From NCBI GenBank assembly GCA_027061995.1, contig JAMOUT010000007.1, forward strand, positions 1 through 63,174: a stretch of 63,174 bases of DNA, read 5' to 3'. Shown here piece after piece: positions 14,331 to 26,520 of this stretch. The number at the start of each line of letters is the position of its first letter. Position 1 is the stretch's first letter. The position numbers were made by a program, and so were the translations under genes. The stretch is from Candidatus Aminicenantota bacterium (GTDB taxonomy: Bacteria > Acidobacteriota > Aminicenantia > JAMOAD01). The notes under the pieces are model-generated. The model saw nothing but the letters and a program-made list of their open reading frames with translations, was not told the origin of the DNA and searched no databases.

Positions 14331-15851
14331 ATGGTAGAATTTACCGAAAAATTGATAAAAAAGATGGTTTTAATGACCATGGTAGTCTTTTTCATATTAT
14401 CTTTTGTTTTTTTTAACTTGTATCTGCGAAATCAACAAGAGAGAAAAAACATAAAAATGGTTCAATATTCAATTGATACAATATCCTATATGTTTTCTCA
14501 AGATGAGATAGATCAATTGATAAGGGGAGATTATGATTTTAAGAAAAAATTCTTTTTGGAAAAGATAAATTTGATACTAAAAAGAATCTCCCATGAATTA
14601 CATTTGCATGAAAAAGATATCTTTATTGTCAGAAAGGACAAAAAACAGTATCTTAAAGTGTTTGTGATTGATAGAGCTCCTAATTTAAAAGGGATGGAAA
14701 AAGTTAGGGAAGTCAATAAATATTTATTTAAGAAGTTTAAGAACGCGGATAATAAAGATACGGAGTATTATATTTTTATAAGGAAAATAGGAAAACGGGA
14801 AAAAATTTTGTTTTCCTCCCTGTTTTTTTCAATCATAATAGTGTTAATTTTTCTATTAAGCTTTCTTATTATTAAAAAAATGTTTGATAAGGATATTGCT
14901 TTTTATAATAAAATTGAAGAAATAATAGATAAAAGAGATGATGAAAATATGATATTGGTTAAAGAGGATGATCTTAAATTTATTGTAAAAATTAAGGAAA
15001 TTATTGCCGGCTTATACTTGATAAAAAAGAGGATTTATAAAAGTGTTTATTCTTTGAAAGAGATTGATAAAGAACAGGTTGTTATTATGTTAAATAGCTT
15101 GAAGAAAGAGATATTAGAGAAAAAAAATCGAGAGGAAGAGATTGATTTTTATCTGAAAAAGATAGGAAGTATTGAAAAAGAAAACAAGGAACTGATTAAA
15201 GCTATGGAGATAAATAATAGTCGGGAAAAAGTTGAAGAATTTCTAACAGGGATTAAGACTGTTAATGATTTTATTCAAAAAATAGAGTCTGATTTATCTT
15301 TAATAAATAGTAACTTTTTAAAAACCATGGAATTAATGGTTTCCATAGAAGAACTTGCGGAGAGGAGTCATCTTTTATCCATAAATGCTACAATTGAAGC
15401 TAGCTCTGAAAATGAGAACAAAAGATTCTCCATCGTTGCATCGGAGATCAGAAAGCTATCTAAGGAATCAAAAGAGATTACCAATAAAATAAAAGCGGAT
15501 TTTTCTTATTTAAAAGAATTAATAGGAGAAAAAGCTATTGAAGATATAAAAAATACAAAAAAGATAATGGATGAACTAATTGTTTTTGAAGAGTTTTTTA
15601 ATGGATATTTTGATAAGCAGATAAATATAACCGATAATATTAAGGCTAATGCGAATGATAGCGGATTAATATCAAAAAAAGTTCTAACCTCTCTGAATTT
15701 GATATTAGAAAACATCCCCAGACAAGAGAAAACCATGAATGAGATTTATTCGGTTATAAATTTGTATATAAAATATTATGAGATTATTAAATCGGATCTT
15801 GAGCAAACAAAAAAAATGATTGATGGGGTATTAAAAAATGAAAAAATATGA
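14331..15851 (+). CDS. Methyl-accepting chemotaxis-type receptor with divergent signalling tip
   Basis: The 506-residue protein has one membrane helix at ~13-32, an extracytoplasmic sensor of about 125 residues and a second helix at ~159-180. A charged coiled-coil linker follows, then a C-terminal MCP signalling domain from ~300. The hairpin-tip block reads LLSINATIEASSENENKRFSIVASEIRKLS, recognisably MCP but less canonical than its neighbour. The extracellular part is unrecognised. It is shorter in the adaptation region than typical receptors, which fits the absence of a cheR gene here. Its end overlaps the next receptor gene by 14 bases. Confidence 0.82.
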   Translation: MVEFTEKLIKKMVLMTMVVFFILSFVFFNLYLRNQQERKNIKMVQYSIDTISYMFSQDEIDQLIRGDYDFKKKFFLEKINLILKRISHELHLHEKDIFIVRKDKKQYLKVFVIDRAPNLKGMEKVREVNKYLFKKFKNADNKDTEYYIFIRKIGKREKILFSSLFFSIIIVLIFLLSFLIIKKMFDKDIAFYNKIEEIIDKRDDENMILVKEDDLKFIVKIKEIIAGLYLIKKRIYKSVYSLKEIDKEQVVIMLNSLKKEILEKKNREEEIDFYLKKIGSIEKENKELIKAMEINNSREKVEEFLTGIKTVNDFIQKIESDLSLINSNFLKTMELMVSIEELAERSHLLSINATIEASSENENKRFSIVASEIRKLSKESKEITNKIKADFSYLKELIGEKAIEDIKNTKKIMDELIVFEEFFNGYFDKQINITDNIKANANDSGLISKKVLTSLNLILENIPRQEKTMNEIYSVINLYIKYYEIIKSDLEQTKKMIDGVLKNEKI

Positions 15852-17739
15852 TTTATATATTATCTCTTTTTTTGTGATTTTATTAGTTCTCTGGATAATA
15901 ATGGCTAATGTTTCCAGTCTTAATTATAGCAAAGAGAGTTCTGTTTTGTTTAATAAATACAATGAGTTGGAAAAAGCATATATGGGAAAAATCATGTTTT
16001 TAAACTTAAAGAACAGTATCGATAATAAAGAGGGGGCAAGTAGTTATAATAGGTTATTTATGCAATTTGAAAAAAGCAAACTGCCGGATGTGGTATTATA
16101 TGAAGAGATAAAAGACAAGGTGAAAAAAGGGGAGGATGCAACAAAAGAGTTTAATAAAATATTAAACATATACGGTGAAAGAATAAGAAAAATAAAAAAA
16201 GAGATTCTCCTATTAGAGAAAAAACAGAATACATATAAATATACTTATAATTTTCTTAAGAGATTATTTATATTTTTTCTGGTGGTATTTTTTCTTTATA
16301 TCTTCTATTTTATCAAATTTAAACTTTTAAAAGATATTAGCAATGTAAATAGGATAATTTCAAAATTGGCTAATAGAGAGCTTGATATAGATAATGAGTA
16401 TTTTCATTCCAAAGATAGTTCTCACTACATTCTCGGGAAACTCTTCAGTAAATTAAAGGCTATTATAAATTCTTTTCAAAACTTCATCACCCCGTTAACA
16501 ATAGCGGGAGCAAATTTATCAAACATCTTTATAAACATTCAGGAGTCCACAAAATATCAATCTTCAATAATTAACGAGGAAGCCGCATCTTTGAATCAAG
16601 TAGCATCATCAACAGAGGAGCTTAGTATAACGGCAAAAGAGATTGCCGATATAGCAAAAGACATAGAAAAGAACTCTTCCGATGGGAAAGAGATGGCTCA
16701 ACAAGGGGAAAAAATTATATCGGAAGTTGTTAAATCAGTGTCGAGTGTTAAGGAGGAGATATTAAAAACAGCAAAACAAAATATTGAGATAGTGGAAAAA
16801 TCAAAAAACATTGACAAAATTCTTGAAGTGATGGAGGATATAACAAGTGAAATTCATCTTCTTGCCTTGAATGCTTCAATAGAATCCGCGGGTGCGGGAG
16901 AATACGGAGAAAGGTTTGCTGTTATTGCTCAAGAAATAAGGGAGCTTGCCGACAATTCCAAGGATGTCATAGAAAAGGTTAAGGAAAATATAGAATCTTT
17001 TCACGACTCATTGAATAGTGCTGTTCTATCAATAGATTATAATGCTAAACAGGTTGAAAAGACAACTGATATTGTAAAGGAGTCGGGGAAATATTTTAAG
17101 AAACTTTTCAAATTGATAGATGCGTCCGTTAATTATTCAAAACATATTGCCAATGCTACAATGCAGCAAAAGATATCTTCCGAACAGATAGTGGAGGTTA
17201 TGCGAGAGATAACAGATGTGATAAATTCCTCAGCCAATGAAATTACAAAAATTAATAATAATATGGATAAAATTATGGAAGTTGCCCTATCAATCAATTC
17301 TCTTATTCAAACTTTTAAAACGGATAAAAAAGATAATTTCAGAAATATTATTGAAAATATAGTGAATAACCACTTTATTAAAAATATGGATATGGAAAAA
17401 ATGGAACAGATATTCAGAGAAACATATGAAAAAAACTCATTCTTTGAAGCAATATATTTTGCTGATAGGGAGGGGGTGTTTAGAGTGTTTGTCTGTGATG
17501 AACAATACAAAGAGAAAAGGGAAAAAGTTATGAAAGTTAGTATGTTTGACAGAGAATGGTTTAAAAAAGCTTATGAAGGAAATAAATTTGTCTTTACAAA
17601 GCCATATATATCTTTGTTTTCAGGCAAATTACATTTTACTTTTTCAGCGCCTGTGATTAATAATGGTGAGTTTGTTGGTGCCGTAGGAATAGATGTTAAT
17701 TATAAGAAATGGATAGAATCTAACCCAAATGAATTTTAA
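15838..17739 (+). CDS. Methyl-accepting chemotaxis-type receptor with C-terminal Cache-like sensor
   Basis: The 633-residue receptor has two membrane helices (~5-22 and ~140-160) around a small extracytoplasmic part. A standard MCP signalling domain follows, with tip block LLALNASIESAGAGEYGERFAVIAQEIRELA at ~340-370. After the coiled coil comes an extra domain from ~500 to the end that looks like a single PDC/Cache unit (EAIYFADREGVFRVFV, SMFDREWFKKAYEG, HFTFSAPVINNGEFVGAVGIDV). Cache units normally sit outside the cell at the N terminus; here one would be cytoplasmic. It overlaps cheA by 11 bases. Confidence 0.85.
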   Translation: MKKYDLYIISFFVILLVLWIIMANVSSLNYSKESSVLFNKYNELEKAYMGKIMFLNLKNSIDNKEGASSYNRLFMQFEKSKLPDVVLYEEIKDKVKKGEDATKEFNKILNIYGERIRKIKKEILLLEKKQNTYKYTYNFLKRLFIFFLVVFFLYIFYFIKFKLLKDISNVNRIISKLANRELDIDNEYFHSKDSSHYILGKLFSKLKAIINSFQNFITPLTIAGANLSNIFINIQESTKYQSSIINEEAASLNQVASSTEELSITAKEIADIAKDIEKNSSDGKEMAQQGEKIISEVVKSVSSVKEEILKTAKQNIEIVEKSKNIDKILEVMEDITSEIHLLALNASIESAGAGEYGERFAVIAQEIRELADNSKDVIEKVKENIESFHDSLNSAVLSIDYNAKQVEKTTDIVKESGKYFKKLFKLIDASVNYSKHIANATMQQKISSEQIVEVMREITDVINSSANEITKINNNMDKIMEVALSINSLIQTFKTDKKDNFRNIIENIVNNHFIKNMDMEKMEQIFRETYEKNSFFEAIYFADREGVFRVFVCDEQYKEKREKVMKVSMFDREWFKKAYEGNKFVFTKPYISLFSGKLHFTFSAPVINNGEFVGAVGIDVNYKKWIESNPNEF

Positions 17740-19714
17740 TTTAAAACAGTTTAAAAAGAAGTTTCTTCAGGAAGCGAAAGAGAAAATAGAAATTTTAACA
17801 GAAGGATTGCTTATTGTGGAAACACAGCCTGAGAATATAGATAAATTAAAAGAACTCATGAGAGCCGCGCACACTTTAAAAGGCTCTTCAAAAATGATGG
17901 GAATTAATGATGTTGCTGAAATAGCGCACTCCATAGAAGATAGGCTTTTAGATTTAATTGATGGAAGGGTGAAATTAAAAAAAGATATAATAACAGAACT
18001 CTTGAAAGATATAGATAAAGTGTCTTCTCTTTTATTTAAAGAAGATAATGGTGATATGGATAAAAAAAAGGATAAAAGAAGCGATGTTCCGTTAGAAAAA
18101 TATACAAAAGAACAAAAAAAAGTTGAGCGAGCACCGAAGGCGAAGGTAACATCCGTTCCTTTGGTAAATTATTTAAAAATAGATATAAAAAGGATAGAGG
18201 GAATAGTAACAAATTTGGAATCCATATTTTTTGATTTATCATCGCTCTCTTCCATTTATGAATCTTTAGAAAGTGAATTTAAGGAAAAAATGGAAAAAAT
18301 TAAAGAAAATGTTAATTTGTTATTAAATGACCTCAATAATATAAGACTTCTTCCTCTTTCTTTGATTTTTGAACCGCAGGTAAGAAACATTAGAGATCTC
18401 TCGATTGAGTTAAAAAAGGACATTCGCTTAAAAATAGAGGGAGGGGAACTTTTAGTCGAAAAAAGGATAATAGACTCATTCTCGGAACCACTGCTTCATT
18501 TAATAAGAAATGCGATAGATCATGGTATTGAATCTCCCGAGGAAAGGATAAAAAAGGGAAAAGATCCTAAAGGGATGATTATTCTCAGAGGATACCAGAA
18601 AAAAGATAGGGTCTTTATAGAGATAGAGGATGACGGAAGAGGTATCGCTTGGGACAAAATTAAAAAGAAAGCGATTGAAAAAGGGCTAATTTCCTTAAAG
18701 CAAAAAGTTAAAAGTAAAGATCTTTTTAAAATTATAACTTCTTCGGGTTTTTCAACCAAAGATAAAGTTACGAATGTTTCGGGGCGAGGAATAGGAATGG
18801 ATATAGTTTTTGATATTGTTCAAAAACTTAACGGGAAATTGTTTGTTGAATCGAAAAAAGACAAAGGGACAAAATTTATTATAACTCTTCCTAAGAATTT
18901 AAGCTTAATAAAATCCTTAATAGTCAGAATAGGAGAATATAAATTTGCAATACCGCTTTCAAGTGTGGAAAAAATTATTAAAAAAGAGAAAGCCGAATTT
19001 ATGGATAAAAATGATAAAGCTTATCTTTATTATTTCGGAGATTCTCTACCTGTTATTGATACAACTGTTCATTTTGGAAAAACAAGTAATAATCCTTCGC
19101 TTTTTATAATAATACGAGATGAATATAATAAAGCCGCTTTACTTGTTGATGAGATTATATCTTATAATGATCTTATAATTAAAGATTCTGGTATTTCTCT
19201 CAAGAAATATGAACATATCCTCGGGAATTCCATTATAGGAAGCGGAGAGATAATAACGGTTTTTGATCCCGAATCTTTAATAGAATTAACGGAAGACAGA
19301 TTATCCATTAATTCATTATTATCAAAAAATCAAACCGAAAATAAAACAAAACTATTAATTCTTGAAGATTCGGAATTAACAAGGGAGATTATTGTTAATA
19401 GCTTAATGGCAAAGGGATTTATTGTTTATGGGGCGGAAAATGGAATAAAAGGGCTGGAAAAGATAAAAACTTTTTCTCCGGATTTTATTATAACTGATAT
19501 TGATATGCCCGAGATGGATGGATTAGACTTTTTCAAAACAATAAGGACAATGGGATATAAAACCCCTGTCCTCTTTCTATCTACGAGAGAGGAGGATGAA
19601 GAGATAAAAGAGGTATTAAAACTCGGAGCAATAGGATTTATTAAAAAGAGTGAATATACTCCCGAAAAAATAAAAAGATTAATAAATAAAGGATTAACCA
19701 ATGAAAAAGATTAA
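17729..19714 (+). CDS. cheA: CheA-type histidine kinase with C-terminal receiver domain
   Basis: The 661-residue hybrid kinase has an HPt domain with phosphorylatable His48 in AAHTLKGSSKMMG. A short charged linker without an evident CheY-binding P2 domain follows. Then come the dimerisation helices, an HATPase domain (LLHLIRNAIDHGIE, DDGRGI, SGRGIGMDIV), a CheW-like domain (~390-525) and a receiver from ~540 with Asp590 in TDIDMPEMDG. CheA fused to a receiver is typical of WspE-like alternative chemosensory kinases. Phosphoryl flow to CheB and to the receiver-GGDEF protein encoded next is the expected output. Confidence 0.93.
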   Translation: MNFNLKQFKKKFLQEAKEKIEILTEGLLIVETQPENIDKLKELMRAAHTLKGSSKMMGINDVAEIAHSIEDRLLDLIDGRVKLKKDIITELLKDIDKVSSLLFKEDNGDMDKKKDKRSDVPLEKYTKEQKKVERAPKAKVTSVPLVNYLKIDIKRIEGIVTNLESIFFDLSSLSSIYESLESEFKEKMEKIKENVNLLLNDLNNIRLLPLSLIFEPQVRNIRDLSIELKKDIRLKIEGGELLVEKRIIDSFSEPLLHLIRNAIDHGIESPEERIKKGKDPKGMIILRGYQKKDRVFIEIEDDGRGIAWDKIKKKAIEKGLISLKQKVKSKDLFKIITSSGFSTKDKVTNVSGRGIGMDIVFDIVQKLNGKLFVESKKDKGTKFIITLPKNLSLIKSLIVRIGEYKFAIPLSSVEKIIKKEKAEFMDKNDKAYLYYFGDSLPVIDTTVHFGKTSNNPSLFIIIRDEYNKAALLVDEIISYNDLIIKDSGISLKKYEHILGNSIIGSGEIITVFDPESLIELTEDRLSINSLLSKNQTENKTKLLILEDSELTREIIVNSLMAKGFIVYGAENGIKGLEKIKTFSPDFIITDIDMPEMDGLDFFKTIRTMGYKTPVLFLSTREEDEEIKEVLKLGAIGFIKKSEYTPEKIKRLINKGLTNEKD

Positions 19715-20726
19715 AGTATTAATTGTAGATGATTCCCCTTTTACGATTGATTATCTTAACAAAATTCTTGGAGAGGACCCCGAGATAGAAGTGATAGATT
19801 TTGCAAATAATGGAAAAGAGGGGTTGGAGAAAACAAAAAAACTTTCTCCCGATATTGTTGTAATGGACATTGAGATGCCTATAATGTCAGGAATTGAAGC
19901 AACCGAAAAAATAATGAAAGAAAAACCCACTCCGATTATTATTTTAACTTCCTCTTTAAACACACGAAATCTTTATAAATCTTTTGATGCGATTAAAAAC
20001 GGGGCACTTGAAATCCTTAATAAACCTACTTCAAGACCTACGGATGAGTGGGATGAAACAATAAAGGAATTATTAGGCACAATAAAAAGAGCTTCTAAAA
20101 TCAATGTTTTTGAAAAAAAGTGGACACGGGAAAGCAAGCTAAATCAAGCTAACTTAAATAGTAGGTATTCTGTAATAGCCATAAATTCTTCAACTGGCGG
20201 CCCCAGAATACTAAATGATATCTTTTCAAATTTAAGAGAGGATTTTAGTATTCCAGTTATTGTTGCTCAACATATTTCCTTTGGATTTACTCAGGGGTTG
20301 GTGGATTGGTTAAATATTTATTCCCCTTTAAATATTAAGATAGCTGAAGATGATGAAATCCTAAAGGGGGGGGATATCTATTTTCCTCCCGACGGAGCAC
20401 ATGTAACCGTTAAAAATGATAGAATAAAGCTATTATATGCAGAGCCTGTGAGGGGAATCAGACCTTCGGGGAATGTTCTTTTTGAGAGTATGGCAAATAA
20501 TTACGGGAAAGAATCGATTGGTATTATTCTTACGGGGATGGGAAAAGACGGATTAAACGGTGCAAAAAAAATAAAAGAGTTGGGAGGGTTGATTATAGCC
20601 CAAGAACCGGATAGCACAATAGTGGCAAGTATGCCCGAGGCGGTAATCAATAATAACCTCGCTGATCTGATTTTAACTCCAAATGATATTATTAATACAA
20701 TATTGGAGATAGAGGAGAGAAAATGA
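19701..20726 (+). CDS. cheB: CheB: receiver-methylesterase
   Basis: The 341-residue protein carries a receiver (Asp56 in VVMDIEMPIMSG) and a CheB catalytic domain. Its triad is visible as Ser164 in NSSTGGP, His191 in VAQHISFG and Asp283 in TGMGKDG. It should remove methyl groups from (or deamidate) the receptors once phosphorylated by CheA. No CheR methyltransferase is in the window, so either one is elsewhere or CheB acts only as a deamidase or signalling branch. Start and stop overlap both neighbours (cheA by 14 bases, the GGDEF gene by four). Confidence 0.95.
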   Translation: MKKIKVLIVDDSPFTIDYLNKILGEDPEIEVIDFANNGKEGLEKTKKLSPDIVVMDIEMPIMSGIEATEKIMKEKPTPIIILTSSLNTRNLYKSFDAIKNGALEILNKPTSRPTDEWDETIKELLGTIKRASKINVFEKKWTRESKLNQANLNSRYSVIAINSSTGGPRILNDIFSNLREDFSIPVIVAQHISFGFTQGLVDWLNIYSPLNIKIAEDDEILKGGDIYFPPDGAHVTVKNDRIKLLYAEPVRGIRPSGNVLFESMANNYGKESIGIILTGMGKDGLNGAKKIKELGGLIIAQEPDSTIVASMPEAVINNNLADLILTPNDIINTILEIEERK

Positions 20727-22153
20727 AAATATTAGTAGCTGATGATTCCCCTTTTATTCTTTCCATTATTTCCGAAATTCTGGAAAATATGGGACATAAA
20801 GTAATTCAAGCTGAAGACGGGATAAAAGCTCTTGAGGAGATTTTTAAGGATCCCCCCGACATTATTATATTGGATGTTATTATGCCGTATATGACGGGAT
20901 ATCAAGTTTCAAGAGTTGTTAAATCCGACAATATAATCAAAGATATTCCTATAATAATATTAACATCAAAAAGTGATGCTGCTGATAGGTTTTGGGGTTA
21001 CACGGTGGGAGCTGATTATTATATTGTTAAAGATGAAAATTTGGAAGTTATAGGTGAAAAACTTAAAGAGATAATCCCTAAATTAAACCCTCCGAAAAAC
21101 AAAAAAATATTAAAAAGAAATTATTCTCCCCTTAATATTCTTTCTAAGGTTAATGAACTTTTGGATAAAAAATTGTATGAATTAACCATTTTAAATAAGA
21201 TAGGGGAGCTTGTAGCGGAGATAACCGATTATCAAAAAATTATGGAGAATTTGGGAGATCTCCTGTCCAATTTATTGGACTATTCATTTTTTTCTATTAT
21301 TACTTTTGAAGAGGCAAAAGTTGATGTTAATACGATTGTTAAAGAAACAATTTCTTCCACTTATTATGAACGGATTAGAAATGATATTATACAAAAGATA
21401 TCAAAAACAGAAAAATCGGACATAAGAGAATACATAATAGGGGATAATTATTTTATTGATTCTAACTCGGATGATAATTTTCCGAAAGATCATATCCATA
21501 TCAAAATAATCGGTAAAAACAAAGAGGTTAGCGGAATAATATTATTAGGTTCGACGAAGCAAAAGAAATTTTCAACGGAAGAAAAAAATATGTTGCAAAC
21601 CATATCAAACTATAGTTTTTTGGTTGTCCAAAGTGCAAAATTATATGCAACAGTTCAAAAATTATCAATAATTGATCCTTTGACACAACTTTATAACCAC
21701 GGATTCATTATCAAAAGGTTGGAAGAAGAATTTAAGCAAGCTGAAAGATATGGTAGAGAACTTTCGATAATTATGGCTGATATTGATTTTTTTAAAAAAG
21801 TCAATGATACATACGGACATCAAACTGGAGATTATGTCTTGAAAATAGTCGCACGAATAATGCAGGAATCTGTTAGGGAAATAGATATTGTAGGAAGGTA
21901 TGGCGGGGAAGAATTCCTTCTTATTTTGCCTGAAACAGGAAAGAAAAACACAAGGATAATAGCAGAAAGAATTCGACAAAGGATAGAGAACCAAAAATTT
22001 TCCCAATTTTTATCCGCTTTTTCCATTACTATAAGTTTGGGAGTGGCTGAATATGAAAAAAAGCTTAAATTACCTTCCGAGTTAATAAAAAAAGCTGATA
22101 CAGCTCTTTATAAAGCAAAAGAAGAGGGGAGAAACAGGGTTATAGTCCTTTGA
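20723..22153 (+). CDS. Response regulator with GGDEF diguanylate cyclase output
   Basis: The 476-residue protein has a receiver (Asp51 in IILDVIMPYMTG), a middle region of about 170 residues resembling a GAF-type sensor and a GGDEF domain from ~320. The active-site loop is intact (GGEEF, 394-398). An inhibitory I-site RxxD (Arg385-Asp388) precedes it by exactly five residues, so it should make cyclic di-GMP and be product-inhibited. As the last gene of a chemosensory operon with CheA-REC and CheB it takes the place of WspR. A WspR-like output is inference from the order and domains. Confidence 0.9.
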   Translation: MKILVADDSPFILSIISEILENMGHKVIQAEDGIKALEEIFKDPPDIIILDVIMPYMTGYQVSRVVKSDNIIKDIPIIILTSKSDAADRFWGYTVGADYYIVKDENLEVIGEKLKEIIPKLNPPKNKKILKRNYSPLNILSKVNELLDKKLYELTILNKIGELVAEITDYQKIMENLGDLLSNLLDYSFFSIITFEEAKVDVNTIVKETISSTYYERIRNDIIQKISKTEKSDIREYIIGDNYFIDSNSDDNFPKDHIHIKIIGKNKEVSGIILLGSTKQKKFSTEEKNMLQTISNYSFLVVQSAKLYATVQKLSIIDPLTQLYNHGFIIKRLEEEFKQAERYGRELSIIMADIDFFKKVNDTYGHQTGDYVLKIVARIMQESVREIDIVGRYGGEEFLLILPETGKKNTRIIAERIRQRIENQKFSQFLSAFSITISLGVAEYEKKLKLPSELIKKADTALYKAKEEGRNRVIVL

Positions 22154-22432: not shown

Positions 22433-23119
22433 TTAGTGAGTATAAAGAATCACATTTCTAAGGCGAAAGGAGGAAATTATTCTTCCACACATAACTCCTT
22501 TTTTCACAAATAGGATTTTATTCTTTCTGAAATCTATTCTTAAAAACTGATTTGTCGCCCAAGAAATATTTTGTATGTCAACAATAGTTTTACCAACACA
22601 GACTTTCCACTCCTCCGGAGTAGTTAAATTAGTATCATATAAAATTGTTTTGGTTACTTTTCGTGCTCTTGTGTCTATTTTGAGGATAGCTTTTTTAAAT
22701 ACCAATTTGAATCTGGCGGGGGATAAAGGATTTCCCGCTACTATCACTTTGACATCATCTGCAGGAGGGGTATAAGGAGCTCCTCCGGCAATCCTGTAAT
22801 TACCGTCGGCAGTAAAAAATATTTTTCTGCCGGTATTCACTTTCCAAAAGTGTCTTCCCATATAATCATGATGAATATGAAAAAGATACTTTTTGCACCT
22901 GAAAATTCCCCATTTTGCCGGTGTGGTTATACTCTTTCCAACGATTTCTTCATGAATTTTTCCGGTCCTTACATTATAGGAGAGAGAAGCATTTGGAAAA
23001 ACCAAGGTAACATTTGCGGGTATTATTGTTAGGGGAATGGATGATGACGGGTGCTTTTGAGCTATTCCCAATGAAAGTAAAAATAGAGTTGCAAGCGAAA
23101 GAATAGTGATTTTTTTCAT
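22433..23119 (-). CDS. Secreted protein with two divergent copies of an unrecognised repeat domain
   Basis: The start is ATG 23119, set by AGGAGG six bases upstream. The product is 228 residues with a signal peptide (MKKITILSLATLFLLSLGIA). The mature part consists of two related units. The first runs from VTLVFPNASLSYN through a Trp/Tyr-rich centre to HFWKVNTGRKIFF and IAGG. The second begins after AGNPLSPARFKLVF and is more degenerate. The same unit occurs twice at the C terminus of the neighbouring gene (shared blocks FW-x-VNT-x-R, GN-x-x-SP-x-RF). I do not recognise the domain. A sigma-54-type promoter and palindromic upstream sites precede the gene. Extracytoplasmic function, unknown. Confidence 0.75.
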   Translation of the reverse strand: MKKITILSLATLFLLSLGIAQKHPSSSIPLTIIPANVTLVFPNASLSYNVRTGKIHEEIVGKSITTPAKWGIFRCKKYLFHIHHDYMGRHFWKVNTGRKIFFTADGNYRIAGGAPYTPPADDVKVIVAGNPLSPARFKLVFKKAILKIDTRARKVTKTILYDTNLTTPEEWKVCVGKTIVDIQNISWATNQFLRIDFRKNKILFVKKGVMCGRIISSFRLRNVILYTH

Positions 23120-23156
23120 TTTAAACCTCCTTATTTTGTTTATTATAGAAAATAAA

Positions 23157-23172
23157 AGCAAAAATTGTGCCA
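23157..23172 (-). promoter_or_regulatory. Predicted sigma-54 promoter of the 228-residue repeat-domain gene
   Basis: On the minus strand the sequence reads TGGCAC-AATTT-TTGCT, with exactly ten bases between the GG and GC doublets, as sigma-54 RNA polymerase requires. Transcription would start near 23146, 27 bases before the ATG, leaving room for the AGGAGG. A TATAAT also occurs nearby (minus strand, about 23144) but lacks a good -35. Confidence 0.65.
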
Positions 23173-23194
23173 CATGGAAATCAATAAAAACGCA

Positions 23195-23249
23195 CCGTTT
23201 TTTAAAACGGAAGTTACAATTTTGTCGAAGTATCGACAAAACTACACTT
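23195..23249 (-). promoter_or_regulatory. Two palindromes, candidate enhancer sites for a sigma-54 activator
   Basis: CCGTTTTTTAAAACGG (23195-23210) is followed by TTTGTCGA-AGTA-TCGACAAA (23221-23240), whose flanks also pair (AAGT at 23211 with ACTT ending at 23249). They lie about 50-100 bases upstream of the predicted sigma-54 start, the usual place for an upstream activator sequence. A similar TTTGTC...TATCGACA site precedes the neighbouring gene. The activator is not identified. Confidence 0.5.
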
Positions 23250-23369
23250 CCTTTATTATCAATTTTAAAATAGAAAATGAGAACATTGTAAAAAAATAAC
23301 TAATATGGGATATTCTTTATAACAAACTTTTGATTATCTTTGTTGATATGATTATAAATTATTTAATTT

Positions 23370-23403
23370 AAAAAGGGAATCTCCTCTTAAAGAAGAGATT
23401 CCC
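23370..23403 (-). terminator. Intrinsic terminator after the CARDB/repeat-domain gene
   Basis: A GC-containing hairpin (GGGAATCTC arm at 23375 pairing with GAGATTCCC ending at 23403, one bulge, AAAG loop region) is followed on the minus strand by TTTTT. It lies 31 bases after the stop codon of the gene at 23434 and separates it from the next sigma-54 promoter. Confidence 0.75.
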
Positions 23404-23433
23404 TCATAATTTTTGCTTCCCTGTTTTTATACT

Positions 23434-25302
23434 TTATTTTGATATTCTGACTCCGATGTTCAAAGTTGTATAATTACCCCCTATTTCACATAAGGAACCA
23501 TTTTTAACTCTATAAACTTTTCCCCGGCTGGTATTAATTCTCCAGAAGAATCCTTTCCAAAATTTTTGTTTTAAATCGAAAAGATAAGATTTTAACTTAC
23601 ATTTTTGCCAATCGGTTCCGTAAGAGAGAATTTTGTCCCCTTCAATAATTTGCAGTGTTTTACTTGAAGTTATGTAAACAAGGTGAGTATCATGAAATCT
23701 CAGAAAAAATCTTGTAGGGGAAATTGAATTTCCTGTTACATCCACACCTATATTAAGTTTTGTTTCTTTTCCTCCGAAATGTCCGAAGGAACCACCTTTT
23801 ATCAGATATACCTCTTTTCTGCTGGTATTTACTTTCCAGTAAAATCCTTTCCAAAATTTTTCCCTGAGATGATATAAATATGATTTTAATTTTACAACTT
23901 GCCAATCTGAACCATACGACAAAACATTTCTCTGTGCTGCTATTTGCAGTGTTTTACTTGAAGGTTCGTAAACAAGGTATGCGTCTTTGAAGTGTAATAT
24001 AAAACTCTTAGGGGTGGAAGAGGTGGAACTATTTGGATTATTGCTACTACAATATACTTTTTTTGTCAGGGTATTATTGGACTCTTTTACTTCGGTCAGA
24101 TTTTTATTATTATCCGCAATTACTTTTATTGTATGGGTTCCAGCTGTTAAATTTAGATTTGCAGCGTGGGGAAACCAAATATAAGTTGCTTGACTATAAG
24201 GTTTTTTTAAGTAACCATTCGGATCAAACCCTTTTAATATCAGGCCGCCCCATGGTTTGCCATCTACATACATCTGAATCCCTACCGCTTTGGGAAGATT
24301 GTAGTGGTAGGAAGGCACTCCGGTTTTACCTATGTTGGCAACAGTTACCGCAATTTTGCAATTATTTGTAAGCTTAATGTTTTTTACAATCAGATCGGGC
24401 AGATTCCTATCAGTTTCCTTTTCAGGAAAATCCTTGAAAATGATATTAACAGAAAAGTGGAAATTATTATCTTCTCTTGATTCCGCAACATCATCATCCG
24501 CATCAATATGAATCTCCAATTTCCCGTTTTTAGGTTCAAGATACGCTTGAGTATGAACATCCTTTATTTGAAAAGCGTTTAATCTTAAATGGGTCTGCTG
24601 ACTTACCAATTTACCATTGAAAAATATCTTATTTTTAAATGTCCCCGAACTAACATTATTGTATTCCCTGTAGGAATAATAGATTTCAAAAACCGGATAA
24701 CCGCGTGAAAAACGGGTTGCATCAGCCGGAGTCAGGACGATTGTTTTGCCCCATTTGACCATCCTTTTTCTCTTTCCTATTTTCAGAAAACCATACATAC
24801 CAAGATCAGGTAATTTACTTGCGGAAGAATGAGAGTTTCCGATTTTAATTCTTCTAACAGCTACATTATTTGATTCACTGGTTTCCGATACTTTGTTGCC
24901 GGGGTCAACCACTGCTCCGATAAAGTAGTATCCGGACGGAGTATCCGCAGGAATAGTGTTTGTGCCATTTAAAACAACATTTATACTTTTACCGGGGGCT
25001 AAATATCTAATAAATTCTCTCCCCCCTCTTAGAAGAACATCATCGGAATAATGAGAAGAATATTTAGCAAATTTGATAGGAATACTACTGTCTTTTGATA
25101 AAACAAGATCAAGTGAGAAATTCCTTGCAGCTGATTTTCCATAATTCATAATGGTTACTTTTACGGATTTTTCTAATTGCTGCCCTGCATAAGCGGAAGC
25201 AGGTGCGTAAATACTAACTCGTAGGTCTGCTTTTTGAGCAAATACACTTACACTAAAAAACAAAACTATGATTAAAATAGTTAAAAATTTTGTTCTTTTC
25301 AT
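23434..25302 (-). CDS. Secreted CARDB-domain protein with two C-terminal copies of an unrecognised repeat
   Basis: ATG 25302 follows AAGGAGGG. The 622-residue product has a signal peptide (LTILIIVLFFSVSVFAQ). Three CARDB-like adhesion/Ig-type domains follow: ~24-150 ending ETSESNNVAVRRI, ~160-300 ending AESREDNNFHF and ~310-425 ending EVKESNNTLTKKV. A Ser/Asn/Thr-rich linker leads to two tandem ~98-residue units (about 434-532 and 533-622). The units share SSKTLQI, LSYG-x-DW, KLKSYL, KFWKGF-x-W-x-NTSR and IGV. They are alike at DNA level too (period 294 bases), so the duplication is recent. It is probably a surface or extracellular structural protein. Function unknown. Confidence 0.8.
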   Translation of the reverse strand: MKRTKFLTILIIVLFFSVSVFAQKADLRVSIYAPASAYAGQQLEKSVKVTIMNYGKSAARNFSLDLVLSKDSSIPIKFAKYSSHYSDDVLLRGGREFIRYLAPGKSINVVLNGTNTIPADTPSGYYFIGAVVDPGNKVSETSESNNVAVRRIKIGNSHSSASKLPDLGMYGFLKIGKRKRMVKWGKTIVLTPADATRFSRGYPVFEIYYSYREYNNVSSGTFKNKIFFNGKLVSQQTHLRLNAFQIKDVHTQAYLEPKNGKLEIHIDADDDVAESREDNNFHFSVNIIFKDFPEKETDRNLPDLIVKNIKLTNNCKIAVTVANIGKTGVPSYHYNLPKAVGIQMYVDGKPWGGLILKGFDPNGYLKKPYSQATYIWFPHAANLNLTAGTHTIKVIADNNKNLTEVKESNNTLTKKVYCSSNNPNSSTSSTPKSFILHFKDAYLVYEPSSKTLQIAAQRNVLSYGSDWQVVKLKSYLYHLREKFWKGFYWKVNTSRKEVYLIKGGSFGHFGGKETKLNIGVDVTGNSISPTRFFLRFHDTHLVYITSSKTLQIIEGDKILSYGTDWQKCKLKSYLFDLKQKFWKGFFWRINTSRGKVYRVKNGSLCEIGGNYTTLNIGVRISK

Positions 25303-25468: not shown

Positions 25469-26110
25469 TTAAAAATTTTCTATTTCAAATGAAAAATTTA
25501 TATTCTTGAGTCTGAGTGTTTTTATTGTTTTATCTATATTTCCGTATATATAATTATAAGAAAAGCTTCCGGTTATGGGATCAACCGAATACCATCCGTA
25601 TTCAGGGAAAAAAATTTCCAACCATCTGTGTTTTTGTAAAATGTTCCTATCTTTATTAAAGTATAATCCTGAAACTTCTCTGTTTTTAACCCCCCATCTT
25701 TTCAATAACATTGATGCCAAGTGGGAAAAACCCGTGCAATAACCTCTCTTTGTATAAGAAACGGTTAGAGCATCCTGAGGGATTTCTTCTTCCGAGTATT
25801 TTACCTCCTCTTTTAAATATAATAAAACATTTTTAACAAATTCAGTATAAGAATTGGAATAATAATATATATTATCCGATATGGAGGCAACTCTTTTATA
25901 TTTTACTCCGTTGATTTTTAAAAAAGCTTTTGATACTCTCGGAAAGACTTTTTTTTCAAATCGAATATTAACTTTAAAGCCACCCTCTTTTTTTATTATT
26001 ATCTGTTTATAATTCTCGCTATCATGATTTATAAGGTAAATCCCCTTTGTATAAGGGATAAAAAATGCAATTTGTTTGAACGCGAGAAAAAAAATAAATA
26101 AAGTTTTCAT
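25469..26110 (-). CDS. Transglutaminase-like cysteine protease-fold protein, probably exported
   Basis: The 213-residue product begins with a hydrophobic signal-like stretch (TLFIFFLAFKQIAFFI). It has the transglutaminase-core triad: Cys in KRGYCTGFSHLASMLL, His in LQKHRWLEIFF and Asp in WYSVDPITG. Bacterial members are mostly uncharacterised; some act as peptidases or amide-bond enzymes at the envelope. The ATG overlaps the nusB stop (ATGA), so it is a coupled last gene of the rocD-ribH-nusB run. Confidence 0.82.
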   Translation of the reverse strand: MKTLFIFFLAFKQIAFFIPYTKGIYLINHDSENYKQIIIKKEGGFKVNIRFEKKVFPRVSKAFLKINGVKYKRVASISDNIYYYSNSYTEFVKNVLLYLKEEVKYSEEEIPQDALTVSYTKRGYCTGFSHLASMLLKRWGVKNREVSGLYFNKDRNILQKHRWLEIFFPEYGWYSVDPITGSFSYNYIYGNIDKTIKTLRLKNINFSFEIENF

Positions 26111-26520
26111 TTATTAAGTTTCTTACTTACCGCATCAATTATTCCGTTTATAAATTTGGGAGAAGAGTCGGTGCCATAAATTTTGGAAATCTCTATAGCT
26201 TCATCGATAATAACAGGTTTCGGAATCTCTTTTTTAAAAAAGAGTTCGAATATAGCGATTCGTAAGATATTTTTATCTATTAAAAACATTCTCTGAAGAT
26301 TCCAATTCTTTGAAACCTCCTTTATCTTTTCATCAATAAATTTTTGATTATCAACAACTCCTTGAACCAACTCTCTGGTGTATTCCTTTACTTTACGGTC
26401 TTTGGAGGAGGCAAAATTATCCCAGAAATAATTGAGTATGTCATCAATATCATCTTTTGTGGCATCATATTCAAAGAGGATTTTAAGAGCCTCCTCCCGT
26501 GCTTTTCTTCGTCTTCCCAT
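26107..26520 (-). CDS. nusB: Transcription antitermination factor NusB
   Basis: The 137-residue all-helical protein starts RRRKAREEALKILFEYD, the arginine-rich boxA-binding helix of NusB. It ends with IDEAIEISKIYGTDSSPKFINGIIDAVSKKL, the family's C-terminal signature. It works with NusE in antitermination complexes on rRNA operons. Adjacency to ribH is common in bacteria. No good SD precedes the ATG. A 16-base palindrome lies in the short gap to ribH. Confidence 0.96.
   Translation of the reverse strand: MGRRRKAREEALKILFEYDATKDDIDDILNYFWDNFASSKDRKVKEYTRELVQGVVDNQKFIDEKIKEVSKNWNLQRMFLIDKNILRIAIFELFFKKEIPKPVIIDEAIEISKIYGTDSSPKFINGIIDAVSKKLNK

Follow-up and report, generated by a model that had tools for sequence, protein, structure and literature searches.

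In the window, by which we mean the whole stretch of 63,174 nucleotides that was analysed, two neighbouring genes on the minus strand specify proteins (P0001 and P0002) that each carry a pair of units of about 98 residues. The features are as follows.

25469 to 26110, minus strand: transglutaminase-like protein (PF01841), the upstream neighbour of P0001 and on the same strand
23434 to 25302, minus strand: P0001, predicted exported protein of 622 aa with a signal peptide, three CARDB domains and a C-terminal unit pair (open reading frame and PF07705)
23719 to 24012, minus strand: unit A1 of P0001, 98 aa, lacking the cysteine pair (profile match 1e-42, and alignment)
23437 to 23718, minus strand: unit A2 of P0001, 94 aa, in which both co-occurring cysteines are present (profile match 2e-37)
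23373 to 23405, minus strand: terminator-like hairpin between P0001 and P0002, 15 pairs and then TTTAAATTAA
22433 to 23119, minus strand: P0002, predicted exported protein of 228 aa, a signal peptide and a diverged unit pair and nothing more (open reading frame)
22721 to 23020, minus strand: unit B1 of P0002, 100 aa (match 6e-11, from a profile built without the B units)
22436 to 22720, minus strand: unit B2 of P0002, 95 aa, the most diverged unit, cysteine pair kept (match 2e-5, from the profile without the B units)

P0001 is taken to start at the ATG at 25302, the translation used for P0001 having one more Lys in front. Read directly, each protein begins with a Sec-type signal peptide (SVSVFA and LSLGIA, each followed by QK), and neither N-terminus has a lipobox. 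The preliminary description had seen in the two proteins a surface or matrix system; the signal peptides uphold the predicted export, whereas a placement at the surface or in a matrix does not follow from them. Three stretches of P0001 match CARDB (PF07705; 9e-27, 93.7 bits against a gathering cut-off of 22.7), and so the N-terminal part of P0001 belongs to that family. CARDB is an exported Ig-like module, which P0001 has in several copies and many relatives have too, and the layout of CARDB followed by the pair recurs in homologues; it forms a stalk beside the pair, which does not itself match CARDB. The small transglutaminase-core protein overlaps the preceding nusB-like open reading frame (26107-26520) by a few bases. 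Convergent with both genes, at 15838-22153 on the plus strand, lies what by eye is a chemosensory cluster, made up of a methyl-accepting receptor, a kinase of CheA type to which a receiver is fused, a methylesterase resembling CheB and a receiver-GGDEF protein.

Four units and one family

The proposal that the four segments are copies of the same module holds up, since all of them align and B1 and B2 are found by a profile built without them. This profile was made from sequences of other organisms together with A1 and A2, both B units being excluded against circularity, and it recovers all four units with the E values listed above, those of A1 and A2 being values for training sequences. B2 scores 20 bits, as against 6 bits for the best of 200 shuffled versions of it. 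Among the six pairwise comparisons of units, A1-A2, A1-B1, A2-B1, A2-B2 and B1-B2 each score above all 2,000 shuffles, and A1-B2 is the sole exception. A1 and A2 share 57-58% of their residues (52 of 90), and the DNA identity at 294-base spacing reported before is there, as a 22-base stretch identical at 23648 and 23942 (with 73% identity over 73 nt). Their differences fall on codon positions 1, 2 and 3 at 0.38, 0.20 and 0.51, with a similar pattern against relatives, and this excess at the third position indicates that the protein sequence is under selection, as expected. It is almost certain that one unnamed domain family covers the four segments.

The motif string given in the preliminary description serves as a consensus of three of the units and fails for B2, which has lost most of it, reading K-T-I-V-D-I in place of K-x-Y-L and F-L-R-I-D-F in place of FWKVNT. 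Its statement that the P0002 units are diverged is correct, B2 being the most diverged of the four. The tail V-x-V-x-GN-x-x-SP-x-RF does link unit 1 to unit 2, and is a linker nowhere else. A sub-repeat within the unit, considered because the hairpins Y-L-V-Y-x-P-S-S-K and Y-W-K-V-N-T-S-R-K look alike, found no profile support and was rejected.

The absence of a named family for the pattern, stated in the preliminary description, is borne out within the libraries searched, where the window units have no relative in Pfam, in NCBIfam or among PDB sequences. With 24 members of the pair as queries the best Pfam-A match has an E value of 0.0011 (DUF6686), and all the scored matches listed lie below the gathering cut-off; P0001 and P0002 match nothing in NCBIfam up to an E value of 10, and sequence searches of PDB chains return no relative of the pair. 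The result is a domain family missing from curated libraries, for which there is an alignment ready for use and a structure predicted with confidence that matches no known fold. Domain families are often newly defined, but less often with a confident model that lacks a fold match. The pair is a good target for structure determination.

The pair as module and its predicted fold

The natural and evolutionary module is the pair of about 190 residues and not the single unit. Almost all relatives carry two adjoining units. The exceptions seen are L043, where a stop follows a single unit, and the fragments G056 and G050, which are cut by a contig end or an internal stop. In the tree the unit-1 and unit-2 sequences group by their position in the main Aminicenantes clades, and so the duplication is older than each of these clades. 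The pair occurs with a signal peptide alone in the stand-alone proteins L037-L041, and elsewhere it is placed after CARDB or Ig-like segments. Proteins of about 1,340 aa from Nitrospirota and the Zymogenus phylum have it at their head, their TPR-like matches being weak and below the cut-off, and in the G946 protein it is N-terminal and followed by a C-terminal segment outside known families. The large proteins G1394 and G1287, whose overlapping matches had made them candidates for long arrays of units, have one pair each and were rejected as arrays.

Two cysteine sites are occupied together or not at all. One lies three residues beyond the central Trp, and the other directly follows the conserved Phe in the G-x-F motif. 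In the alignment both cysteines are present in 28 of 48 units, neither in 20 and one only in 0, these units being related by descent and hence not 48 independent events. Within the window A2 and B2 have the cysteine pair (in A2 at residues 138 and 175 of the pair) and A1 and B1 do not. So perfect an association points to an optional disulfide in each unit, which would form outside the cytoplasm, and it also supports the alignment.

AlphaFold2, run on the 24-sequence alignment, gives a pLDDT of 96.4 and a pTM of 0.88 for the P0001 pair, and 89.0 and 0.80 for that of P0002. In the P0001 model DSSP assigns twenty segments to strands and none of at least 4 residues to a helix, and so the pair is confidently predicted to be all-beta. 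Foldseek against 350,542 PDB chains returns no match at E ≤ 1e-3, the best values for the two pairs being 0.029 and 0.0076, with TM scores of up to about 0.22 in the Foldseek alignments. Against the viral models of BFVD the P0001 pair likewise has no significant match. No confident match of the window pairs to a known domain came from Pfam, NCBIfam, PDB sequences or Foldseek, and a new fold is possible though not proven. As a tentative reading, the pair may be a new all-beta fold with pseudo-two-fold symmetry and an optional disulfide per unit, each unit of about 98 residues being made of about ten short strand segments, which in Aminicenantes would serve as an extracellular head for recognition and in Nitrospirota as that of large TPR-like proteins.

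Somewhat doubtful is the competing idea that a known beta architecture, be it a small beta-propeller or some other, escaped the fold search. The top Foldseek matches are indeed mostly propellers, galectins and LolA/ependymin-like proteins. However, none reaches E ≤ 1e-3 or a TM score beyond about 0.22 in spite of the confident model, and so the TM of about 0.5 or more that would mark a beta-propeller is not attained in the Foldseek alignments; moreover five four-stranded blades would amount to 2.5 per unit and would break the repeat.

Gene context and occurrence in genomes

That P0001 and P0002, being adjacent, form one system is not sustained: a hairpin lies between them, their adjacency is not conserved, they have no common neighbours among relatives and their pairs belong to separate lineages. 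The strong terminator-like hairpin at 23405-23373 implies, as read from the DNA, that the genes are probably separate transcription units. The P0002 orthologue L017, from another genus of the same family, is 51-52% identical to it, and in G003 the P0002 orthologue sits amid different genes and has no CARDB partner. No neighbours are conserved among relatives beyond close kin and there is no conserved operon; a link of P0001 to the transglutaminase-like protein is likewise unsupported by conserved context. In the tree the P0002 pair joins only its orthologue, and that of P0001 groups with proteins of CARDB type from a different family. The two pairs thus stand in separate, anciently diverged lineages, and so their adjacency is not a recent tandem duplication; it has the look of local coincidence or of old paralogy.

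The search for relatives, made with the 24-sequence alignment, finds exactly two copies in the 2.36 Mb genome of the window, those of P0001 and P0002. Across the class Aminicenantes the pair is in 30 of 142 genomes, mostly as one copy each; 26 of these belong to one family, two to the window's own and one each to two others. A draw across the phylum gave one further genome among 396. Elsewhere, under phylum labels that are the database records' own titles (all the titled records being MAGs), it is rare and occurs in 1 of 294 genomes of the Planctomycetota draw, 2 of 103 in Thermotogota, 3 of 345 in the Zymogenus phylum, 3 of 246 in Nitrospirota and 2 of 9 from the phylum to which the 'Aquificota' genome belongs. 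L044 is labelled 'Chrysiogenales', but it lies on a contig that agrees in length and place with G044, and G044 belongs to the class of the window. This scattered presence outside the class suggests transfer or repeated loss, and contamination of single MAGs is possible. Virus and plasmid searches found no relatives, and the literature searched yielded nothing on this domain or on Aminicenantes with CARDB. That literature has little on the surface biology of the Aminicenantes, an uncultured group, and the pair offers a first handle on their exported proteins.

Possible role outside the cytoplasm

Our preferred reading, to which we give a probability of roughly 0.45, is that the locus holds two copies of a duplicated extracytoplasmic domain of about 190 residues, most likely acting as a binding head, this role being what keeps the figure down. 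The domain arose by internal duplication of a unit of about 98 residues that is predicted to be all-beta; P0001 and P0002 would be exported by the Sec route, as their signal peptides suggest, and after export the two units would pack into a single compact beta module, braced in many copies by a disulfide in each unit. The module stands in P0001 at the C-terminal end of a stalk of three Ig-like CARDB domains, and in P0002 it is free. It would recognise a ligand outside the cytoplasm, be it a polysaccharide, an envelope component or a protein, and the CARDB, Ig-like or TPR-like partners would be spacer or scaffold. A beta module that is exported and compact, keeps its aromatic residues conserved and occurs with varied partners or none (CARDB in Aminicenantes, TPR-like proteins from Nitrospirota and the Zymogenus phylum, none in the stand-alone proteins) is best read as such a head. 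The earlier suggestion that the functional part is the module agrees with the proteins made of a signal peptide and a pair. The working analogy is with carbohydrate-binding and other extracellular adhesive beta modules, which are likewise exported, compact, all-beta, Trp/Tyr-rich and portable; the pair matches no such family in sequence or fold, and binding is putative. The conserved Trp and Tyr may belong to the core rather than to a binding surface, and the neighbourhoods of the relatives compared hold no conserved genes that indicate a substrate.

A purely structural or assembly role would give the same appearance as a binding role. Here the pair would be a structural or oligomerising beta domain with no small ligand, concerned with matrix or envelope assembly, and the two-fold repetition within the pair and Ig-like stalks would serve polymer building. 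The tandem CARDB stalks, the fusions to TPR-like scaffolds and the conservation of hydrophobic and aromatic residues all suit this, but stand-alone single-copy proteins in genomes with one such gene, and the lack of long unit arrays in the large proteins, make it rather improbable. Very unlikely is a C-terminal signal that sorts or anchors proteins to the cell surface, in the manner of the type IX C-terminal domain. Aminicenantes proteins do end with the pair after diverse N-terminal parts, but one or two copies per genome contrast with the many cargos of sorting domains, some proteins consist of the pair alone, and P0001 and P0002 match no sorting domain of NCBIfam; its copy number and its N-terminal position in the TPR-like proteins and the G946 protein largely refute that reading.

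Narrow NCBIfam models of subclass B1 metallo-beta-lactamases (WUS/MUS/TUS) match up to 8 of the 24 members, at best L035 (500-1081; E 8.7e-11, 41.5 bits where the cut-off is 540, in stretches of about 53 residues), both units of which match at about positions 45-97 with other lactamase features absent; among some relatives the resemblance covers about positions 42-98. Kinship with these enzymes is nonetheless scarcely credible, and we treat the match as an unexplained local resemblance, because the scores fall far under curated cut-offs of 400-550 bits, only about positions 38-111 of 246 of the model are covered, the window proteins are unmatched, no metallo-beta-lactamase appears in the PDB sequence searches or among the fold matches listed, the prediction is all-beta and not alpha/beta, and the zinc ligands H-x-H-x-D are not conserved, being found in one of the 24 pairs, that of P0002, whose orthologue L017 has H-V-H-H-E.

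Some relatives of the binding-head candidate have further conserved segments beside the pair. In the main Aminicenantes family L044, L047, L050, L051 and their relatives have a conserved exported N-terminal segment of about 130 aa before CARDB, with FGSIRKGKCKWxHK in L044; Pfam gives no match to it in either L044 or L050. The exported family of about 1,340 residues from Nitrospirota and the Zymogenus phylum (L114:7101-11108, L115:330-4541, L116:4704-8696 and L052:1057-4919) runs from the N-terminal pair through a conserved segment, VLVVPFQVxGYAxDRxxRSLMT, to TPR-like repeats, with no Pfam match above the cut-off. By eye the segment fused to the pair there is TolB/CsgG-like, and with the TPR-like repeats it resembles periplasmic proteins of TolB/CsgG-like plus TPR type; at the thresholds applied no Pfam family matches the segment, and the TPR matches are weak and below cut-off. 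In the G946 protein (L117:7842-9038) the C-terminal half, for which Pfam and NCBIfam give no match at E ≤ 0.05, carries after the pair two copies of the repeat D-C-I/V-x-F-D-P ... F-V-G-R-P-(D/N)-A-S.
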